This document shows, piece after piece, positions 4,581 through 47,604 of a stretch of 64,000 nt of DNA (within the stretch, counting starts at the first letter, position 1; the number at the start of each line of letters is the position of its first letter). The position numbers were made by a program, and so were the translations under genes. The stretch is from Isoetes taiwanensis (lineage: Eukaryota; Streptophyta; Lycopodiopsida; Isoetales; Isoetaceae). The notes under the pieces are model-generated. The model was given only the letters and a program-made list of their open reading frames with translations, was not told the origin of the DNA and ran no database searches. The stretch lies in the NCBI GenBank assembly GCA_021234155.1, contig JAJEKV010000034.1, positions 498,001-562,000 of the forward strand. Direction: 5' to 3'.

Positions 4581-7500
4581 GCAAATCTGCGTCAAAAATA
4601 GGAGCTTGTTTCTAACTGTGTAGAAGTTAGTCTTTTCAGTGTATGTAGTTCTATACCAGAAGCATCTGATACAGACATAGACAAATTGCATTCTTCTCCA
4701 TTTAACAATGTTTAACATTTGCATATAATCAGATCTATTATATTCACCTCCATTACATTCACCGACGCTAGTTACTTATAATTTATACATGTTCCTTTAT
4801 TATGTTATTTGCATCTGCTAAAATTTTGTGCTCCTCAACAGGATTCTTAATGGAGACAATGGATGAAAGTGGCACAAGGATAACAGAGTAACAGAGGTCT
4901 TTTACATGATCTTTTTACATGATCTGCAATAGACTTGGAGCGCATGTTTCTTTTATGGCTATTTTTTCTCCAACTGCAAGTAGATTAGCATAGATGTTCT
5001 CGATTTTTCTGCAAACATGTACCTATATTTGATGCAATTTTTGATTAGCAGTGAGTGCATCTTGCATATGATGCGAAGGCATCTCCAGGGTCATTTCCAG
5101 TTCCCTTCTAAGGGCTTGCACCAATCCATGAAGCTAAATTGGGTGGAAAAAAAGGGGCAAAAATGCTTTGCAAATAACCAACTTGGGATGCCTAATACAT
5201 GCCTATTTGCAATGTAATTCATTGCTTGATATTATTACTGTCAGTAAGTTGCCGCAATACCAGTTCGGCTATTTGGTTATTTGCTTGTCATGTGCAATCC
5301 TGAATCCACTGAAACAATGCATGCTGTGATGGTCCTTCGCCCGACACCGATCGTTACTGAAGTACCTCACACAAAGCTCAAGATCCCACGGGTGCACAAC
5401 CTACAAGTCATCCCCAAACCCCAAGTAATATATTGCGGTTCCCCTAAGCTGTGGGTCTCTAGCTCAGGGGAAAACCTTCACCTAGAAGCAATTCGATGTG
5501 ACCAGCATCAAATCCGCACTAGCGAGCTTCATCAGTGCCCACTCACTAGTGTTGAGTGCTTAACACTCGTGGCCTCGGTTTCTGCTTATTCTCCCGGGAG
5601 AGTTGTGGGCAGACCAAGGTGCAATCCAGGCTAGCAACATGAGCAATTTTTTAGTATTTTTCTATGGATATGCTAACTCGAGAAAACTATTTATGAACGT
5701 ATACCTAATTACAAGATCTTCTATAGAAAAAGGTCCAATATATAACCACATCTTAAAAGATGCAACTGTAAGATCCATTATTACAAGAAACATTGTTAAT
5801 GGTTTGAACATATATATTTTAATTTAGATTTACGACAATTAGTACCTATATCTTAGTTCAAATGATGTCCGGACATTCCTATATTTATGACATGCCGAAG
5901 CAACAACTAGACAACAGAGTTGTCTTGTATCTGCAAAACCAGCTTGCATGTCAAAAGAATATTCAAGGCAAAATATTAAAACATGGATATGAAATAAACT
6001 TCTTATGGGAGGTGATGTGGCATCACCCGATTGGGTGGGTCATGAAGAACTTTGTTATGGCTTAACGCCAACTTTGGGAAAGTGGCTCAGGCTCAACACA
6101 CTTTAGAATTAACATGTCAAGGGTTAACCCATTTAAAAAGTTAAGAACCTTATGTTTAAAAATAAAAAACATAACAGAGGCTGATAACAGGGTCGACGAC
6201 CTCGTTTATATCTAAACCTCTAACAGAGCGGCAGTTCTGTCGGATTGGGCATAAAAAGGCTCGATCCTTCTGTATATGGCCGAGTCTGTGCTACTTGCAT
6301 TCGATCTAATAGTATTTACATCTATTTACTTTTTTTTTCTATGCTATTTGCAGCCAGGAAAGACGATTTCAGAAAAGGGACTGTTCCTTCCTGATAAATA
6401 CAGTTGCCGTTTCTGTTTGAGGAAAAGAACTTCGCCTGAATCTTTTATAATCCTTGTACCTCTGTTTGCTGTTATCGTCTAGTTGACTTATTATTACTGA
6501 ATCATCTGTGTTCACAACTTTGGTTCTGTTCAGTGCACGCAGCGGCCGGATGGCTTGCCTTACACTTTGAGATGATCCCCAGAAGAATCATAAGATCTAG
6601 AGATGGAGTAGATAGAGATTTCGGCCCTTGGGCTTAAAGGATAACCCAGCCGTTCACGATTTAAAGCAGGATTTGATGCAGCAGCTAATAACTATTCCTC
6701 CTCTTCTAAATTTTCTAATGGAAGGATTCCTTAGTTTAAAACATAAAGCAGTTGTTTAATGGATACCTACCTTCGTTTGCTTCTTCTAATCCTTGTTCTT
6801 ATTTTCTTAATCTTCTGCTTCCTTTCTGTTTCTGCTCCTCACGTTCCCCTCTTTCTCTCTTCTCATTTTTGTTTCCTAACCTCTCTTTGCCATGTCATCC
6901 TTATGCCACGTCATCTCCCTTTATTATTTAATATAATTTAAAGATAGAATTACAATACAATTCACATCACACATGCTCTGGGATGGTCAGTAAGTGCAAT
7001 GACAGACTTGCATTTTATGATGCTAGAAAAAAAATGCTAGAAAATACTAGAAATGCTAGAAAAAAAAAATAAAAAATACAGGTGCACTTCATTACTAGGT
7101 TTATCATTTATATTCGTCCTCTATCGCCATAATTTTTGTGTCATAACACCCATTCTATCTATATGTGCTTCTGTACTCAGCGAGTAGTTTGTAAATGGAT
7201 CTCTTCCTATGATGTTTCTCATTCGAGTTTAAGATGGAGTAAACAATCAATAAACTAGGAAAAGCGCAGAACGAATATGTCCCGCTGTTAATGTTGTTTC
7301 TCATTTCTTGCCATATAACTGAGATAAGATGGAGTAAAAAAGAAACACTCTAAGAAAACAGTAAGAAGAAGAGGCCGATTCCTGACCCCGGCAGACCTTG
7401 TTTGGCATCAACATTGAATATATAGCACAATAACAAGAGGGTTCCTTTGTGTTTTTTGTACGTTTTTCAATATAGTTTTGCTATGATTTGGTTGATGTAT

Positions 7501-11542: not shown

Positions 11543-12714
11543 TTTTCTCACAAAGGAAAAATGTTAGAATGGGACATGTCCCACTTTTTTCAAAAGGGGT
11601 GTCTCGTAGAGATTGGAGATCCTTCATAAAGTTGCATGCAAAATCCTTTTATGACAAGTGGAAGCTTGCATGTCTAAAGAAAAAAACATTTTCTAACATG
11701 CAAACCAAGAGAGTTAAGTGGCATAAAACGTTATGAGAGTGGGAAGATATAACATCAAATTACTAGGAAAATGAAAGTTTTACTTTTGCATATTTCATTA
11801 TACGAGGTAAGGAAGAATCCTTTCTATGGTATGCATGTATGAGGTCTCCCTTTGTATGTAGCTTGCCTGCATAAATACATGCATAAATAGGCATTTAATC
11901 ATTCTGTTGCCGATGAAATCCAATGAGATAAAAAGCTTCATAGTCCTCTGTTGATCCAAGTAAGAGTATAATTAAACTACCCAGTTAGTGACAAATGCAC
12001 TACGCTACAAATCCAGTTGAGTGTGCTGAAGCAGTCAAATAATACTACCTTGTCAACTTCTGATGTCGACTTTTGAAGAATTTCTCACTAAAATATTAAG
12101 TGACATGAAAACTTGAGCTAGAGCCATGATCCGTGTAATGTGCTAAAGAGCATTATAAATTCAAAATCATAGGGCCCACTGTAGCTTTTCCATTTCCTAA
12201 ACCTGTCATTTCTTTCCCCATAGGTTTGTAACATTTTGAATTGTCTTTAACTTCAAATTAAACCATTGTGCTTGGTTTTTATTTCTTATCTTTTCCAGCC
12301 TTCAAAGGTCGTTAGCTCAGCCTCAATTTTTCATGCTTGTCAATACCGAGTTTTCGACCTGCAAACCAAGTGTATCCATATTTTTTGAACTATCAGCTGC
12401 AAAATTGATCTTACTGGATGCATTAAATCACGACTTGGCCAATAAACCACCAAGTTCTTTGAGATTCTCAACCCTTAAAGGTTTTAGTTTCTTATCTTTT
12501 CCAGCCCTTAAAGGTCATGATCTATTCTATTCTATTCTCAAGAGTGTTTCTTCTATCAATTTCAAGTTCGCCATGAAATTCAAGTGTATCCATCTCTTTG
12601 GAACCATTGACTGCAAAATGAGCATATAAGTACATTTGCAAGTTACATGTATTTCTCTGTTCATATACATGTATAGAAGTGTAACTGTATTCCACATTAT
12701 TCATAATAAAAAAA
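11543..12714 (+). repeat. Segmental duplication, uninterrupted copy
   Basis: Bases 11543-11683 match 16094-16234, and 11684-12714 match 20481-21493, nearly base for base apart from small indels. In this copy the two parts are contiguous, so it shows the state of the second copy before a 4.2-kb element entered. Its right edge (cattattcataataa) is where the Copia element sits in the other copy. A TTCTATTCTATTC stretch at about 12522-12538 replaces 'aacaagcct' of the other copy. No known protein is encoded. Confidence 0.92.
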
Positions 12715-14284: not shown

Positions 14285-14650
14285 TCCTATGTCTAAATTA
14301 TCATATGGCAATGCAAACTCAGCCAAGGGACATTGCAAATGCCCAGTACAAATTCTTTCTAGCTTTTATACATCTCTCACACAGTTAGTGCGTTACATAG
14401 CTATCTGAAATATGCAGATCTAAAATCTATATGACTGTACCAATTGCGCTTAGCTTAATGCTATCATATCAAAATAACATTAAGCTATCAATGTAATTTT
14501 TCCAGCTTCACAATGCATTGGAGTATTACTATTCTTTACAATGAATAAACCTAAAAGATAAGCAGACCTGTTGAGCTCGATTAGTAGTGCCAATGCTTTG
14601 AGTAGACGTGTTGGTAATCTTTTCTGGTGACTTGTCATAATTGCTCAGCT

Positions 14651-15140
14651 CTAGTTCACCTCATCGTTGTCATTAGATCCAAGCTTTTTAATCTTGCTCT
14701 GAGAGGCTGAGTTTGGATCAGCTGCTTGCACTCCATTATCTACAGAATTTACAATGGAATCAGCTGCAATGTTTGCAATCCTTGCAATCTTCTGACGAAC
14801 CCTTGGGAGCAAGATGATTCTATCCTAATGAATTCGAGCAAGATACCTGTAAGCGGCACTGTATAATCCATGTTTCTAGCATTCCTTTATAAGCCAGAGG
14901 CCGTCTAACAGAGTATCTCCAATTTGAAGAGAAGCAGATAATGTTTTCCGCAGTTAAACAACATATCTATAAGAAAAGAGAACCGTATACCTCCATACCT
15001 AACTTGTATGATCGAGATGCAATAACATTGGAAGCAATCCCTTCGATCATGGCCGTCCACTTTTGTACGAAGGTACTCCATAATTATCTCTTTAGAATTT
15101 CTATTTCTTCCACGTTGAAGTGGAGCGGACCAATTGCAAA
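14651..15140 (-). pseudogene. Unrecognised gene end, copy 1
   Basis: On the minus strand the 3' part reads SASLQIGDTLLDGLWLIKE, then SAAYRYLARIH, DRIILLPRVRQKIARIANIA and ADSIVNSVDNGVQAADPNSA, ending ...GSNDNDEVN with a stop at 14651-14653. A more upstream stretch reads WSTFVQKWTAMIEGIASNVI. The charged, helical composition is that of a real protein C-terminus, but I do not know the family. Two in-frame stops (after LIKEC and after YLARIH) occur in both copies, so the break came before the duplication. The upstream exons are absent, which fits a relocated fragment. Confidence 0.55.
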
Positions 15141-15597
15141 AGATAACATTTTTCTCACAAAGGAAAAATGTTAGAATGGGACATGTCCCACTTTTTTCAT
15201 GTTAGAATAGGACATGTCCCCCATTTAGACATGTCCTATGTCTAAATTATCATATGGCAATGCAAACTCAGCCAAGGGACATTGCAAATGCCCAGTACAA
15301 ATTCTTTCTAGCTTTCATACATCTCTCACACAGTTAGTGCGTTACATAGCTATCTGAAATATGCAGATCTAAAATCTATATGACTGTACCAATTGCGCTT
15401 AGCTTAATGCTATCATATCAAAATAACATTAAGCTATCAATGTAATTTTTCCAGCTTCACAATGCATTGGAGTATTACTATTCTTTACAATGAATAAACC
15501 TAAAAGATAAGCAGACTTGTTGAGCTCGATTAGTAGTGCCAATGCTTTGAGTAGACGTGTTGGTAATCTTTTCTGGTGACATCATAATTGCTCAGCT

Positions 15598-16085
15598 CTA
15601 GTTCACCTCACTGTTTTCATTAGATCCAAGCTTTTTAATCTTGCTCTGAGAGGCTGAGTTTGGATCAGCTGCTTGCACTCCATTATCTACAGAATTTACA
15701 ATGGAATCAACTGCAATGTTTGCAATCCTTGCAATCTTCTGACGAACCCTTGGGAGCAAGATGATTCTATCCTAATGAATTCGAGCAAGATACTTGTAAG
15801 CGGCACTGTGTAATCCATGTTTCTAGCATTCCTTTATAAGCCAGAGGCCGTCTAACAGAGTATCTCCAATTTGAAGAGAAGCAGATAATGTTTTCCGCAG
15901 TTAAATAACATATCTATAAGAAAAGAGAACCGTATACCTCCATACCTAACTTGTATGATCGAGATGCAATAACATTGGAAGCAATCCCTTCGATCATGGC
16001 CGTCCACTTTCGTATGAAGGTACTCCATAATTATCTCTTTAGAATTTCTATTCTTCCACGTTGAAGTGGAGCGGACCAATTGCAA
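15598..16085 (-). pseudogene. Unrecognised gene end, copy 2
   Basis: Tandem duplicate of the fragment at 14651-15140. The same LPRVRQKIARIANIA core, the same two internal stops and a C-terminus GSNENSEVN with its stop at 15598-15600. Differences from copy 1 are scattered single bases and one short deletion before the coding end. No function can be assigned. Confidence 0.55.
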
Positions 16086-16093
16086 AAGATAAC

Positions 16094-16234
16094 ATTTTTC
16101 TCACAAAGGAAAAATGTTAGAATGGGACATGTCCCACTTTTTTCAAAAGGGTGTCTCGTAGAGATTGAAGATCCTTCATAAAGTTGCATGCAAAACCCTT
16201 TTATGACAAGTGGAAGCTTGCATGTCTAAAGAAA
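16094..16234 (+). repeat. Segmental duplication, second copy, left part
   Basis: Matches 11543-11683 (ctcacaaaggaaaaatg ... gcttgcatgtctaaagaaa). The match stops exactly at 16234 where the hairpin-ended element begins; the remainder of the segment resumes at 20481. Confidence 0.92.
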
Positions 16235-18372
16235 CAAGGTGCTGCGCACGAGGGGTTGCCCTCTGGGGGCCCGAGAGTGTGTTTTCATGGGTTCTATTTC
16301 GTCGTTTTCTGGTGGGTTTTGTTTGTTTTATATGGAGCCGTGTAATTCAGGGTGCATATAGACATCATCCTGCAGCAAAGGAATGATCATCTAATATTAA
16401 CCTTTCAGCAAAGATGTATGTTGACGTACAACTTTGCTGGAAATTATAGATGACTATATGCTATTGTAGTATCATAGCAGCTTGTAGTCTTTACAAGCCC
16501 TAATTACATATTGAGAACATGATCATCCTTTTGGAGTGGCCGCTTCGTATTGAAGATCTAACTTTTATGCTACCTTACTGTTTATAGAATTTCTACTAGA
16601 GTTACCAGAAACTGTTGCACTAAGATCTCAAACATTGCAAAGAAAAAACAAGGGCCTCTGCATATCAATACACTCGATGTAAACATGAATGAGAAGCATC
16701 TCAATATCCCTGACCAATAATGCTAATCAATGAGATGGAATATATTATTGTTGAGAGTATTCCAGTTGTAAATCTTACGTGCGGGCTATTTGCAAGACTA
16801 TAGTTGTGGATCTCCACCAATCGGGGACGATGAGTGAGCCACGACCTCTGCTTTGCCGCAACACCGCAAATTGGTACTCCGAGGCATTATTTGAAAGGTA
16901 GCATATCAATCATATACTTTTTCAACAATTCACGAAAAACAATTGGAGAGAAAGGAGAACCAACCCGAGGAGTATAGATTGGGAAGCTCCTCAAAAGCCA
17001 CATCCATTATATCTGCAGATTATAAGATGCGCGCATTGCTCTAGCAAATAAAAGGAAGTTCTTCAAGTAATATCCGAACATTTGTCAAACACCACGAAAT
17101 CATGTATTAATAGCAATTGCACATACCTATCAACGTAGTTGCCAGGGTCAACTTGCAACCTTCTAACGATTAAGCTACATGAGTCACATCAAGAATAAAT
17201 TATTAAGGCAAACATTTCCATGATGCACATTTGCACATGCAAAGCAATCAGTAGTAATATGGATGAAACAAGAGAAACAAGTACAAGCCTAGGAAGCATT
17301 AATACTTAAGGCATCTATTAGTCGTAATTGCCAGAAATGTGTGATAGTCCTGCTCACTTCTAAAGCGAGAGCAACCGTAAGGCATGAGACATCAATGTTC
17401 CGCTCCAATATCCACGAATAATACGCTACCATGGCAAATGAAGTGCCAAGCAAGCTCGAAAGACAAGTATGCAAGATACAAATAAGGTGAAAGTTTAGGT
17501 AATCTACAAGACACTTTGCATGGTGGCCTTTGCCGCCGTGAAGTTGGGAAATGTGTGGGAGTTGAACCCACAGTAGTCCCTGCAAATGTGCGAAGCTACT
17601 CATATTTGCAGCTTTGTGGCAGTGTTATTCAACTTCACATGTTTTCAGTCGTTGTTAAGCTTGGTTTAGTGTATGCATGCAGTGCTAATAAATAATGTTT
17701 GCATGCTAAATTTAAGGAAAATTAAACAGGGTTAGATTTCGGTTTGTGCATATATTATACTCTGCTCAAGATAAAGTTTAGAAGTTCCTAGCTTTGGGCC
17801 ATTGCTTCTTCTAAAGCACAACTCACATAACAAAAACTAGATTTCCGATTCACAAATGTGATTTCTAAGAACGAATCGTAACACTTTCACGGGCGATGGC
17901 CTACAAGCAAAACATCACCCAAGTTTTACTCACATTTCATTATCGAGCTCCCTTTGCTTTGCCCGCTGTGTGCGGCCCTCCAGGAGGAAGACTTCCTCCA
18001 ATGGCCCGAAGATGTTATAGAACGTTTATAGCCTTGGCTATAATGTAGATAGATGTTGTACCATAACCATAGGCATTTAGCACATCATTAGAATCTATTG
18101 GCTTAGTTGTGTCACCAACTTGTTTAAAATTGTGCCCTTCATAACTCATGGTTTATAATCTTCCCAGACCATGGCCACCTGCTTGCTGCAGGTCAATCAG
18201 TTTTCTTTGCACAGTATAATTAGCAGCAAGAAGTATGAGAAACTAAAAATAAATGTACTACAACGAACATCAAAAGGGATTGACAATTCGGAATTTGAAA
18301 GGTTTAATGGAAGGTGAAGAAACGTTTGACATGTTCAAAGAATGTACAATGCACATCAATAAATTGTGAACT

Positions 18373-18570
18373 TCAATAAGTACCATTCAGAATTTTGAGG
18401 ACAGATAAAATATTCGAGCATTCTGACGAGGTGGCAAACCATGTTTCTTGCATATTTATGAATATATCAAGAGCTTCTTTGTCGTAGTCATGATGGATAA
18501 GTCCAGCAATCATTCTGTTCGAGACTCCAAAAACGAAACAATAATTACCATAATCACTATGCTTGCACAA
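18373..18570 (-). pseudogene. PPR gene fragment inside the hairpin-ended element
   Basis: The minus-strand frame reads NRMIAGLIHHDYDKEALDIF followed by INMQETWFATSSECSNILSV and LKILNG. This is one pentatricopeptide repeat plus the start of the next in typical PLS spacing (an IAG...KEAL.IF..MQ core). It is far shorter than any functional PPR protein. Its location inside an element with no transposase frame suggests capture of a host exon. It is not an obvious copy of the PPR fragment at 3551. Confidence 0.65.
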
Positions 18571-20393
18571 ATTTGAAAGTGGTTTGGGTTGATTCCAATG
18601 TTCTCAAATGTTGGTTCAGATGCTGGATAACATGGGGTCAGAACTGCAGGGGAAAATAATATATGATCAGTAGGGACAATCCTTCAAAAGGAATGGAGAA
18701 AATTGACATATTACCTGGTCACAGCATCCTTGAGCCCTCTATGATGTCCCCGCTCCATTCTACAGGGAACAGCTCCATTCTGCAGGGAACAAAAGTTGTA
18801 TGTGGGTGGGATGACATAAAGACATAATGTATGAAGTCTACTTACGTCAACTTATTGTAAATCACCCAGGCTTTGGGCAAAGCATTTCCTGTAGCATTGG
18901 CAAGACCAAGGGCAAGACACCATAAACATCATATCTTTCTCGCGTATAGATAGGATCTAATTACTATCTAGGACAATCTTTGACAATATTATCAGTAAGT
19001 TCTGAGGGTTATTTCGTGCTTTTCTGCACAAAGGTCCAGCATTTAGGTTCAATCGGAATTCTGCCATCTGCGACATACATGCTTTGAAGCATTTACTCTG
19101 CTTCTCTATTTTAAGATGTTTGTGGACAAATCTGATCAAGCTAGCCATGCAAAGAGACAACATTAAAACACAATATGCCATGTTTAAAACAGGCACATTC
19201 ACAGTTAATGAGCATGAATTGAGACGAACATCTAAAGGATAGAAATTTGACTGTGCTTACCTCACACTCCAGCTTGGCGAAGAGTATTAGATAGATGTTC
19301 CTCTGCTCTGTACAAAAAGCAAGCAAATACAGTAGAAATAAATCTATCTGCAACTGCTTGAAACATTACAAATTGTCTGTATTGTGCTAAGGAACTGGCT
19401 ATGCAACCTGCAAACATACAAAAAACATTGAGCATACAGAAAAAGTGAATAGATGAGAAATAATTCACAATACCATGCATGTTACTCAAATGATCAAGCT
19501 GATTACAGGTCAAATGACAAAAGTGAAGTTTAGAAACACCTGTCTATTCTAGAAGCCTAATGCCTAACAAATGAATCGAGAAAAGACTTGCAGATTTAAA
19601 TCTAAGGTAAGCATTTGGCTTTTCAGGATGCATAGACAACCTAGAAAATGTGAAGTTGAAGTAAGCAACCCATAGCCACAACAGAAAGTAGTAAAGTTTT
19701 GCAAGCACAGGTGAGAAGTGTTACACTTACCGGAATTTGTAGCTAGATTGATTCATAGCTACCGCTGTGATATATGGTGGCCGGATATGCTAGGCATATG
19801 CACTGCCCTTTTATGTTACAGGGGTGCAAAACATGCATCAAGCCAGCATGCAGGGACAACGCACCACATAATCGCCATTGCCGAAGCTCCATGATTTTGC
19901 TACAGAGCAAGAATCCTGCGATGACAACTCCCGGAAGCAACTAAGCAAATAAAGCTAAAGGAAAAAAAGACCTAAACCGTACACTGAATCTTAGCCTTTG
20001 GGATCGATATCAAACAATCGGCCATGCTTGCTCTGAGCAACCATGATTCTTCAAATCGAAGACTTAAGCAGCAACCACGGTTCTTCTAAGGCTCTACCTA
20101 GCTGCGATGCCAAATCCCAGGTATGAAGCCAACCTTGAGGCTGTTGAACAGACTCAGAGAAATTATAGACACGATGGCATCATCCCGGAGCAGCACGTTT
20201 TGCAATCTGCTTTGACATTTGAAGCACCTCAGGCTCTAACCAAGAAGAGCTCCCACGGTTTGCTGCACTCTGGCCGATCCATGGCCGATCTGTGGGATTC
20301 AGTAGAAACCGGTTACCCAGTTTGCACAGCCTCCGCCCAACGACACTCGCGACCTGGCATTTACAGGCAACAAGAGGTTTTTAGCAGTCACCA

Positions 20394-20433
20394 GCATATC
20401 TTAGGTATATTCTAGCATATACCTAGGATATGC
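20394..20433. repeat. Subterminal inverted repeat (17-bp arms)
   Basis: GCATATCTTAGGTATAT, a 6-base loop, then ATATACCTAGGATATGC: 17-base arms with one mismatch. Related hairpins lie at 42393-42432 and 45064-45103, in each case next to or inside the same kind of element end. Confidence 0.9.
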
Positions 20434-20452
20434 TAAAAACCCACATAAACGA

Positions 20453-20477
20453 GGGTTTGCCCCCCTAGGGGCAACCC
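20453..20477. repeat. Terminal hairpin of the element
   Basis: GGGTTTGCCCC and GGGGCAACCC flank a short CCTA-type loop, followed by an A run. The same arrangement closes 47578-47604 and, inverted, opens 42344-42373. Confidence 0.9.
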
Positions 20478-20480
20478 AAA

Positions 20481-21493
20481 AAACATTTTCTAACATGCAA
20501 ACCAAGAGAGTTCAGTGGCATAAAACGTTATGAGAGTGGGAAGATATAACATCAAATTACTAGGAAAATGAAAGTTTTGTTATACGAGGTAAGGAAAAAT
20601 CCTTTCTATGGTATGCATGTATGAGGTCTCCCCTTGTATGTAGCTTGCCTGCATAAATACATGCATAAATAGGCATTTAATCATTCTGTTGCCGATGAAA
20701 TCCAATGCGATAAAAAGCTTCATAGTCCTCTGTTGATCCAAGTAAGAGTATAATTAAACTACCCAGTTAGTGACAAATGCACTACGCTACAAATCCAGTT
20801 GAGTGTGCTCAAGCAGTCAAATAATACTACCTTGTCAACTTCTGATGTCGACTTTTGAAGAATTTCTCACTAAAATTGCCGAGATTAAGTGACATGAAAA
20901 CTTGAGCTAGAGCCATGATCCGTGTAATGTGCTAAAGAGCATTATAAATTCAAAATCATAGGGCCCACTGTAGCTTTTCCATTTCCTAAACCTGTCATTT
21001 CTTTCCCCATAGGTTTGTAACATTTTGAATTGTCTTTAACTTCAAATTAAACCATTGTGCTTGGTTTTTATTTCTTATCTTTTCCAGCATTCAAAGGTCG
21101 TTAGCAATGAGCCTCAATTTTTCATGCTTGTCGCTACCGAGTTTTCGACCTGCAAACCAAGTGTATCCATATTTTTTGAAATATCAGCTGCAAAACTGAT
21201 CTTACTGGATGCATTAAATCACGACTTGGCCAATAAACCACCAAGTTCTTTGAGATTCTCAACCCTTAAAGGTTTTAGTTTCTTATCTTTTCCAGCCCTT
21301 AAAGGTCATGATCAACAAGCCTCAAGAGTGTTTCTTCTATCAATTTCAAGTTCGCCATGAAATTCAAGTGTATCCATCTCTTTGGAACCATTGACTGCAA
21401 AATGAGCATATAAGTACATTTGCAAGTTACATGTATTTCTCTGTTCATATACATGTATAGAAGTGTAACTGCATTCCACATTATTCATAATAA
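20481..21493 (+). repeat. Segmental duplication, second copy, right part
   Basis: Matches 11684-12714 with small indels (for example 15 bases present near 11783 are missing here). It ends at cattattcataataa, directly abutting the 5' LTR of the Copia element. Confidence 0.92.
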
Positions 21494-42343: not shown

Positions 42344-42392
42344 TTTTTGGGTTGCCCCTAGGGGGGCAATCCCTTGTTTATGTGGGTTTTTG

Positions 42393-42432
42393 GCATATTC
42401 ATGGTATATGCTAGCATATACCTAGAATATGC
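42393..42432. repeat. Subterminal hairpin
   Basis: GCATATTCATGGTATAT, loop GCTAGC, ATATACCTAGAATATGC: 17-base arms with two mismatches. Same position relative to the element end as at 20394-20433. Confidence 0.88.
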
Positions 42433-42543
42433 CAAAAACTGCTAAAAACCTGCTGTAAGCTGTAAATGCTCGGTCATGCCTGTTGCCAGGCGGCTGCTGT
42501 GCATACCGGCTAACCGGAAGTTAGGATGCATGGAGGCCATCGG

Positions 42544-45007: not shown

Positions 45008-45063
45008 TGATATTGAACTTTGATGTGTACAACTAAAAATTAGATGCCTATGTGGGGTTTGTG

Positions 45064-45103
45064 GCATATCCTAGGTATATGCTGGAATATACCTAGGATA
45101 TGC
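45064..45103. repeat. Perfect 17-bp-arm inverted repeat
   Basis: GCATATCCTAGGTATAT, loop GCTGGA, ATATACCTAGGATATGC. The preceding tatgtgggg and the following tggtgactgct show it is a third, end-truncated copy of the hairpin-ended element terminus, in the same orientation as 42344. Confidence 0.93.
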
Positions 45104-46446
45104 TGGTGACTGCTCCAAACCCATTGTTCCCTATAAACTAGCGGTCTCGTGCATTCTAGATCGCAAACTTTGACCTAACTTTGTTGTTTTACAAACAGAG
45201 TTTGACTTAGCTGCCACATTGTCTGCCACTCCCTATTACCAGGGTATCTAGTATAAGTTCCACCAGGGCTAGAGTCTAGAGATGTCCAAGTCGTTCCATA
45301 TGAAGGATACTGGACCCTCAAACCAACCTTTTCTAGGATCTAGAGCATCTCCAGAACATCATGAAGGCTTCGTAAAACAAAGCTAAGCTCATGCCAAACT
45401 ACATTACTATAGACTTTGATGGCTCAGTCAGAGACTTCTCAGTTAATATTGCCTAAGGCATCTTCCTTGCTTTTAGAGTTTACAATGTTGTAGGTGGACC
45501 TTTCAACCAGCCTATCGGCCTTGAGCCTTAGGCTTTAGGATAGATGAGCACTGCTTTTGGAGTATGAAGCCAGAGTTATAGAAGAGCAAGAGGCATTAGA
45601 CCAACTTCTTGATGACAGTACTCAGTCGATATAGAGACAAAGTGAAGAGACCGAAAGGAGGAGATCCAAGAGATGGAAGCAGAAGAACATGCATCCCTAT
45701 TAATAAAACAGATAGTGCATGTCATCGCCGGCCTATTATGAATCTTCATCGAATGGGAAAGCATACTTGTTGATCAACGACATCAAGAATCTTCTGGAGT
45801 GCCAAGCTCTAGGCTACCATATCCATGAGCTCAGACCAGCAAGAGGAGCTCGACATCTTCATCAATTTTAACACACAAGAGCTTCAAGTGGAAGAACGCA
45901 AGGCAAAAACATATATAGATAGGAATATATCAGACATAGATGCCTACCTTAGCATCATGAGCTTGGGTCAGAGCATATAATCTTCCATCAAAAGGAGAAC
46001 TCTCAACGACACGAAAGTGCATAGAAGTCAGAAGGAAGGCCACCACAATTTCACAGCCTAGCAGCTTAAGCGGACCTCGAGCATCCATGACGAGCTCCCA
46101 GCTCTCTTGCATCAGTAGGAAGACCTTGACAACTTCATTGACTTCGATAACAGAAGTTCATGATGGAGGAATGAGAGGAGACACATATTAGGGAAGAAAC
46201 ATTTCCGACGTAAAGGCCTATGTCAGCATCAGGGTGCATGGGATAATTCCGTGTGCTGCACTATGGAATTGTTTGATTTTGTTTTCCATTGAGTGTGAAG
46301 GATTTCTAGTAGATTTCTACATTATCCCAGTTGCTGCACATTGTAGTGCAGTTCCACAGCAGAGTACATTCTCTGTTTTATGGTGCTACAACCAATTCAT
46401 TTTTGGCCTGAAGCCAGTTTTGTTTTCTAAGGTTAAGAGCTTGTAA
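45104..46446. other. No recognisable gene
   Basis: Contains stretches with protein-like composition (about 45545-45700, + strand: LLEYEARVIEEQEALDQLL, coiled-coil-like) broken by stops. Possibly an old retroelement gag, but no diagnostic motif supports that. Confidence 0.35.
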
Positions 46447-46601: not shown

Positions 46602-47577
46602 GAGTTGTTTTATAATAGTTTTAAAGCCAAACATTGGCCATGCTGGAATTGTTGTTTGCATTATTGAAATTTGATCATAAATTTTTGCTAAGAAATTCAC
46701 CAGCCTTTGATCTAGCATAAATCAAGGAATATTCAACAAGTCAATGCTCACAAATAAAAAATGTGTTAACCCACTGTGGGTTGCCCTTGCATCAAAATCA
46801 AGCTTGTGCCTAAGTAAATCGTGGTGATAAAGAACATGCTTGACATGTGTCTGAAAAATCCTAGTTTTATAATTGAATTGAAGCTAGCAAGTCAATTTTC
46901 CTTATTTCGAAACCGACCTTGTGCTGCATTGATTACTAGAAGATCTAGATGGGCGCTCGAGTCTGGATGTGTAAGCCTTTTAGCAAATACTCAACAAATA
47001 TGAGATGGGTTGTTTTAGGAGTGTATTTACTTTGAGACCTTATCTTAATCGCAAAGGCGGCCATCTGTACTGCTGTAACCCTAGGTTTTGTGTGCCATAG
47101 CCCTGAAACTATGAGTAGTTCCCAATATGATGCAGCCAATACATTCACTTCTAAGAAAAAAAAACTCTTGGGAGATCCATTGCCCAACCATCCAAACCAC
47201 TGTCAAAACTGTCCAATCTGCTCCTTTAGAGTTTCAAGTCATCCAAATCAATTAAAAATCCAATTCTCTCCAATATGCTCCAAAATCCTCATTCTAGCCA
47301 TGAATATCAAGAACAATCGTTTTTCCCGCCCCTCCTCCTTCTCAAATCCTCTAGAAGGGCTCCTCTGAATCTGCTTCGATGGCAAGAAGGGCTCCACTGC
47401 TTTAGGTCTCAACGGCACAGTGGCCTGCTAATGCAGGATAGCGCCGGTCAATGGCACCCAAGGCAGCCACTCACGTCATGTGACACTGGGTGGTTTCGTG
47501 ATTTGCCCTTCTAAACTGTCCGATTGGTACATCGGACGGTACAACCCAAAATATTCTTCCACCCAACACCCAAGCAA

Positions 47578-47604
47578 GGGTTTGCCCTTCGGGCAACCCA
47601 AAAA
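47578..47604. repeat. Terminal hairpin
   Basis: GGGTTTGCCC, short TTC loop, GGGCAACCC, then AAAAA. It pairs in inverted orientation with 42344-42373. Confidence 0.85.

Follow-up and report, generated by a model that had tools for sequence, protein, structure and literature searches.

Within a 64,000-nucleotide stretch of the Isoetes taiwanensis genome (C1039:498001-562000, here called the window), a 4245-bp insertion on the minus strand (16233-20477) is very probably a non-autonomous rolling-circle element of the Helentron/Helitron2 type (HINE). The assignment is drawn from its sequence features: its inverted repeats are asymmetric, the target is not duplicated apart from an ambiguous TT, and the insertion lies directly after a T run. 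We regard the Isoetes taiwanensis family to which it belongs as a new Helentron-type family, a known class in an unusual host lineage. That the hairpin-ended insertion is real and has defined boundaries is confirmed by an uninterrupted paralogous site in the same window. A first-pass annotation of this DNA had proposed an undescribed system whose ends could not be matched to a known superfamily; that proposal is not upheld, since the ends fit the published layout of Helitron2 and Helentron elements.

Empty site, termini and target

At 11543-12714 the two flanks of the element occur as one unbroken match, and alignment across the junction is 147/150, so that the uninterrupted site first recognized in the initial annotation stands; the ends are set by this empty site together with termini shared among copies. 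On the minus strand the filled site reads ...AATGTTTTTT, then the element GGGTTGCCCC...CACCTTGTT, then TCTTTAG...; its empty counterpart reads ...AATGTTTTTT^TCTTTAG.... The boundaries originally given (16235-20477) are correct at the right end and 2 bp short at the left, where the element starts at 16233. The left flank adjoining the insertion is itself duplicated head to tail (14285-15199 and 15234-16145, 98.4% identical).

The inverted GGGTTGCCC repeats described earlier are present at both ends, and their placement is asymmetric: the 9-bp copies GGGTTGCCC and GGGCAACCC lie, respectively, at the very 5′ end (0 nt) and 20 nt inside the 3′ end, as in Helitron2/Helentron elements, where the 5′ copy is 0-2 bp and the 3′ copy about 20-30 bp from the ends. 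The true 5′ end, on the right, forms a hairpin that involves the inverted repeat, again as in Helitron2/Helentron structure. Its 30 nt fold at -10.5 kcal/mol (z -3.49), with 0 of 200 shuffles as good, and small variants of the same end were found across the 31 loci read, a sample that excludes 10 of the 41 long 5′-end matches listed. The second hairpin reported just inside the right end was recovered too; it is longer, has a z of -6.20 with none of 200 shuffles as good, and has self-complementary matches at many copies. At the 3′ end the order on the minus strand is GGGCAACCC, CTC, GTGC-GCA-GCAC and CTTGTT, which places a hairpin between the inverted repeat and the terminus, as in Helitron2/Helentron elements. 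This hairpin is thermodynamically modest (for the 31-nt end z is -1.89, and 7 of 200 shuffles are as good), and the earlier statement that both ends self-fold therefore holds for the right end and only modestly for the left. The double terminal hairpin was initially thought unusual; the Helitron2/Helentron layout leads one to expect hairpins at both ends.

Insertion follows T runs. At least five T precede 30 of the 31 5′ ends read, the exception having twelve T and then one G, and the background of five T in the window is 0.49%. When the joined 75+75 bp flanks of nine further elements were searched for empty sites in one query (39 of 875 candidates scored), uninterrupted sites were found for five of the nine among the matches listed, those without one there being C1079, C1040, C1025 and C1089; with the window's own, this amounts to six of ten paired elements and 15 aligned sites. 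The junction in all six lies directly after a T run, or after a T run broken by one C in some paralogous sites, with no deletion and no duplication beyond the ambiguous TT that follows CTTG. A T-rich target without duplication is again the Helitron2/Helentron pattern, a TT duplication being indistinguishable from a terminal TT. The base on the 3′ side of the element is T at 24, A at 4 and C at 3 of 31 3′ ends; this count combines 28 of 40 listed 3′-end places with the 3′ ends of L014, L015 and L016, leaves out C1103 and the 11 of 40 places not fetched, and required CTTGTT or CGTGTT, so it is blind to variation in the last TT.

These observations bear directly on whether the insertion could be a Pack-type element with terminal inverted repeats (TIR, class II cut-and-paste), a reading that inverted GGGTTGCCC repeats and gene fragments would invite and that we consider scarcely credible. 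The repeats are offset by 20 nt rather than symmetric, none of the six elements with empty sites has a duplication of 3-11 bp, and no fixed-length duplication is seen other than the TT, which could be one; in addition, the 5′ ends follow T runs, and L108, a locus with the same 3′ terminus, encodes Rep/helicase motifs. The earlier description as a Pack-type non-autonomous DNA element thus keeps its non-autonomous character, its large family, its defined ends and some gene fragments, and loses the Pack-type label.

Table 1. Features of the element and of related sequences in the window
Feature	Position	Strand	Basis
Whole non-autonomous rolling-circle element (probable)	16233..20477	-	Empty site 11543-12714 and shared termini of 9 other paired elements
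Target T run (6 T) directly before the 5′ end	20478..20483	-	
5′ terminal hairpin GGGTTGCCCCTAGGGGGGCAAACCC; the 5′ copy of the asymmetric repeat is its first 9 nt (20469-20477)	20453..20477	-	Fold and 31 loci
Second, longer hairpin directly inside the 5′ end	20376..20441	-	z -6.20, 0/200 shuffles as good
Degenerate PPR-like frame inside the element	18373..18603	-	Pfam PPR E 0.056, 14.1 bits, below the 25-bit cut-off
3′ copy of the asymmetric inverted repeat, GGGCAACCC, 20 nt inside the 3′ terminus	16253..16261	-	Sequence; position fixed by the empty site
3′ subterminal hairpin GTGC-GCA-GCAC	16239..16249	-	Fold of the 31-nt end; within a 29-mer with 3841 genome matches
3′ terminus CTTGTT; last TT belongs to the element or is a 2-bp duplication of the T-run target	16233..16238	-	
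Paralogous site lacking the insertion; the junction falls between 11680 and 11681	11543..12714	-	BLAST of flanks, alignment 147/150
5′ end of a further member of the family, flanked by TTTTT	42349..42517	+	
5′-truncated relative retaining the second hairpin	45049..45137	+	
Related short element, GGGTTGCCCGAAGGGCAAACCC subtype	46778..47599	-	5′ end at 47599, of a subtype with 276 genome matches at up to one mismatch (control 0); 3′ inverted repeat 46778-46786 is a candidate, a guess

Copies of the family and the gene pieces they carry

The genome searched comprises 1,658,258,908 bases in 1110 contigs. A 29-mer from the 3′ end has 3841 matches there at up to two mismatches and its reversed-pattern control has none, while the terminal 110 bp of the 5′ end and 116 bp of the 3′ end gave 2660 and 2016 candidate places, respectively, the best 40 of each being scored. 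For a second 5′ subtype, TTTTGGGTTGCCCGAAGGGCAAACCC, 276 matches were counted with one mismatch allowed (control 0). The genome-wide search with the terminus that the first-pass annotation had recommended did yield full-length copies with defined ends: of eleven further loci that were fetched at length, nine carry the two ends in matching orientation, and the resulting ten paired elements, the window's included, span 4041 to 19,521 bp, with terminal sequences in common and interiors that are different or shared patchwise. C1103 (L011) stands outside these ten because its 3′ end is missing the final 20 nt; it retains the 3′ inverted repeat, and the hairpin and CTTGTT are swapped for other sequence. 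No 5′ end was found in the 8.7 kb read at C1045 (L017). The ends also recur within the window, as had been noticed, at 42349 (a 5′ end, plus strand), at 47599 (the 5′ end of a related subtype, minus strand) and at 45049 (5′-truncated, with the second hairpin kept); the short minus-strand element that begins at 47599 has a different candidate 3′ hairpin, AACCCACAGTGGGTT.

Several copies are arranged in more complex ways. At L043 (C1045:18813680-18814000), one element's 3′ end is followed by TT and then by a second element's 5′ end, a head-to-tail order that fits either head-to-tail insertion or concatemers. L009 (C974) and L016 (C135) each have an extra internal 5′ end, at element positions 4881 and 4512, respectively, and are thus nested or double-5′ structures. 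L015 (C1066) has inserted into satellite DNA, a tandem array that repeats about every 340 bp and is present on many scaffolds.

Gene pieces lie between the two family ends in three copies. L014 (C1089) carries a RING finger (36.6 bits) and a UBC-like domain (67.3 bits); among solved structures the latter has a match to listerin (E 5.1e-6). PPR repeats are found in L009 (109.7 bits) and L016 (40.3 bits). The PPR exon assigned to the window copy can be kept as a PPR-like frame, weakly supported at 14.1 bits against the Pfam cut-off of 25. These gene pieces were presumably taken from the host rather than being old parts of the element. The absence of a visible transposase from the window copy holds up, in that tblastn at E 1e-3 gave no match in the window to five pieces of four canonical Helitron Rep/helicase loci or to four reading frames of the Helentron-like L108.

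On the published model, transposition would start with a nick beside the T run, made by a Rep/helicase that probably has an endonuclease at its C terminus, and one strand would be peeled off starting at the 5′ end. Displacement would halt when the 5′ and 3′ inverted repeats pair, as proposed in PMC3627910. The freed strand or circle would then be joined into another T run with no target duplication, and a missed 3′ stop would cause adjoining host DNA to be copied along, which is the proposed reason for copies with the same ends and different insides.

Rep/helicase genes in the same genome

DUF6570 (PF20209), which we take to be a domain of non-canonical Helitron proteins, was for that reason used as a search profile, and it gave 29 genome matches with all 37 candidates scored. 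Nine of these loci were read, L108 over 10 kb and the other eight over 3 kb on the upstream side. The family 3′ terminus is present in three of the nine, with alignment scores of 41 (L108), 45 and 55, the maximum in 200 simulated 10-kb sequences being 26, and the frames of all eight other loci, L112 and L113 included, are homologous to the first frame of L108.

A 903-aa frame of L108 (C1035) contains Helitron_like_N (56.1 bits, E 7.5e-15) and DUF6570 (34.6 bits). The Rep motif of the locus is RGSPHDH, which has the S of GSPHxH that marks Helentrons (PMC4067079). The broken frames after it contain the helicase motifs Walker A, DEISM and TALSR, with a PIF1 helicase piece below the Pfam cut-off (E 0.034), followed by LQEV, DFN and SDH spread over three frames. 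We take these last motifs, and their order, to be those of endonuclease/exonuclease/phosphatase enzymes, and L108 probably ends in a frameshifted endonuclease tail. The 3′ terminus GGGCAACCCTCTGTGCGCAAGCACCTTGTT lies downstream of the coding frames on the same strand, and when a query of the L108 3′ region was extended 200 bp past it, ten places matched, L108 itself included: six of the nine other copies end at query position 748-749, which is the terminus, three end earlier (709, 601 and 418), and past the terminus only L108 continues, into a different repeat that occurs elsewhere without the element. At L112 and L113, on two different scaffolds, the shared homology runs from precisely the family 3′ terminus into the DUF6570 part, the only part read, whose frame is on the strand opposite to the terminus. 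DUF6570 frames that have the 3′ terminus upstream of them, on the other strand, are located at C907:28695280 and C930:7643045. L108 is unlikely to be a contaminant, because it sits on a 17.6-Mb scaffold beside a repeat present on many scaffolds. The copy with Rep/helicase that was to be looked for exists in a decayed state, as L108, which has the same 3′ terminus and Rep/helicase motifs; a partner with Rep, helicase and the S of G(S)PHxH, as expected for a Helentron, was seen in L108 only.

The case is evenly poised on the broader proposition of a land-plant Helentron lineage whose 3′ terminus accompanies DUF6570-Rep/helicase genes on either strand (its own in L108, the opposite one in L112 and L113) and which would drive several thousand elements, some of them with host gene pieces inside. 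If true, it would amount to a non-Helitron1 gene-carrying system in a vascular plant, existing beside canonical Helitrons. Opposite-strand Rep/helicase genes are known in some Helitron2 (PMC3627910) and Helentron (PMC4067079) elements.

A number of observations weigh against a Helentron-type element served by such partners. The 2337 bp that were read ahead of the L108 frame yielded no GGGTTGCC 5′ end, which leaves the final ~30 bases at the 3′ side to connect the family with the coding loci, and no coding element read carries both family ends. Beyond that short 3′ end, BLASTN at E 1e-5 matches nothing of L108 in the window or in the 13 pieces L005-L017, and tblastn with its frames is negative for the same sequences. 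The family 3′ end was not found in six of the nine DUF6570 loci, eight of the nine having been read over 3 kb. L108 is frameshifted, and Rep and helicase together were read in L108 only; its Exo_endo_phos match is below the Pfam cut-off (E 0.045-0.096) and lies over the first nuclease motif (LQEV), and its last frame, the endonuclease part, has no match in solved structures. At some empty sites, moreover, the T run is interrupted by a single C, or small indels occur close to the junction though not at it.

Canonical Helitrons are plentiful in this genome, and it could be argued that the family consists of such Helitrons (Helitron1) with drifted ends, moved by the abundant canonical Rep/helicases. 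Many canonical-type Rep domains were indeed found when the best 150 of 1813 PF14214 candidates were scored. Twenty of the 150, fetched as a sample, form two clades and read RGLPHxH in 18 cases, RGLSHxH in one and RGFPHxH in one (by eye); against the canonical Helitron Helraiser in solved structures, one clade I Rep scores 219.6 bits and one clade II Rep 177.8 bits. We nevertheless consider drifted Helitron1 ends very improbable. The family's ends are GGG...CTTGTT, without 5′-TC or 3′-CTRR, and its copies insert behind T runs rather than between A and T. In DNA read around seven canonical Rep subfamilies (16 pieces), the family ends were not found, and no piece, some of them being partly N, has the family 3′ terminus (maximum score 22). 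A motif scan of subfamilies A, B, D, IIa, IIb and IIc instead revealed a GC-rich hairpin and then CTAG downstream of B, D, IIb and IIc, not of A or IIa; subfamily B also has a 5′ boundary common to several copies. Two subfamily-C loci are partly N (5000 and 5500 bases), and subfamily C is accordingly not excluded by this reading; the N stretches downstream of two subfamily-C Rep genes (L082-L083, L087) lie beside long simple GAGA-type repeats.

Canonical Rep subfamilies were the first assumption for the partners of the family and were dropped on the result from the 16 pieces. The guess that clade II Reps are of Helitron2 type was likewise abandoned in view of the CTAG hairpin ends at IIb and IIc, as was a putative subfamily D end, CAGATGCAGT, which had 7 candidates and, on the downstream side, the only one searched, no boundary. 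A search for asymmetric repeats around A, B, D, IIa, IIb and IIc gave no confirmable pair. When listed Rep places were compared by eye with listed family ends, both being samples, none lay within 20 kb, the nearest being about 23 kb apart on C970.

Relation to known rolling-circle elements

One of the closest known systems is Helitron2, whose 5′ inverted repeat lies within the 5′ hairpin, 0-2 bp from the terminus, and which inserts after TTTT, usually with no target duplication (Bao and Jurka 2013, PMC3627910). The Isoetes family shares the 5′ repeat and hairpin at the very end, the TTTT insertion and the lack of duplication, and differs in that Helitron2 lacks an endonuclease, which the partner of the Isoetes family probably has, and in that the base after the 3′ end is T or C only in Helitron2 and T, A or C here (PMC3627910). 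That the family is Helitron2 in the strict sense, with a Rep/helicase devoid of endonuclease, is an unlikely reading, though one to be taken seriously: the TTTT target, the 9-bp repeat and the hairpins at both ends fit it as well as or better than they fit a Helentron, and the endonuclease match is weak. The S in Rep GSPHxH, the LQEV, DFN and SDH motifs after the helicase and the Exo_endo_phos match, weak as it is, argue for a Helentron instead.

Helentrons and the non-autonomous HINE and DINE-1 elements that go with them (Thomas et al. 2014, PMC4067079) have palindromic subterminal repeats, a 3′ stem loop and a T-rich target in common with the Isoetes family, as well as ambiguous ownership of the flanking T, non-autonomous copies outnumbering coding ones, the S of GSPHxH and gene capture. 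The subterminal repeats of a mite Helentron lie 2-4 nt inside the 5′ end rather than at the very end (PMC4067079). Plant hits were few in that 2014 survey, where contamination was not excludable (PMC4067079), whereas Isoetes family copies sit in multi-megabase scaffolds. The non-canonical FoHeli elements of Fusarium (Chellapan et al. 2016, PMC5148889) also have asymmetric inverted repeats with the 3′ repeat tens of bp inside, and FoHeli1 and 2 have hairpins at both ends; they differ in their TCAG or TGCCT starts, their target and their fungal hosts. Helitron1 elements, gene-carrying plant Helitrons included, have in common with the Isoetes family a rolling-circle mode, the lack of target duplication and host gene fragments, and differ in their TC...CTRR ends, single 3′ hairpin, A|T target and the L of Rep GLPHxH.

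In the element name Helitron-5_SMo, SMo stands for the lycophyte Selaginella moellendorffii. The tool HELIANO has an HLE2 class, and its paper may already include plant HLE2 elements. Helitron-5_SMo itself is named as a Helitron2 element by Bao and Jurka 2013 (PMC3627910). In the open-licence PubMed Central literature, judged by titles and abstract openings, no Helentron/Helitron2 family for Isoetes was found, and the term 'Helitron' does not occur in the main text of either the Isoetes taiwanensis or the I. sinensis genome paper, so that the repeats of this family may be unclassified. Tools that seek TC...CTRR ends would miss them.

Helentrons have been described mainly from animals and fungi (PMC4067079), and it is in this light that 3841 3′-end matches, long scaffolds, clean empty sites and a decayed Rep/helicase relative in a land plant are of note. 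With its PPR-containing and listerin-like members, the Isoetes family would permit gene carrying by two rolling-circle types to be compared in one genome.

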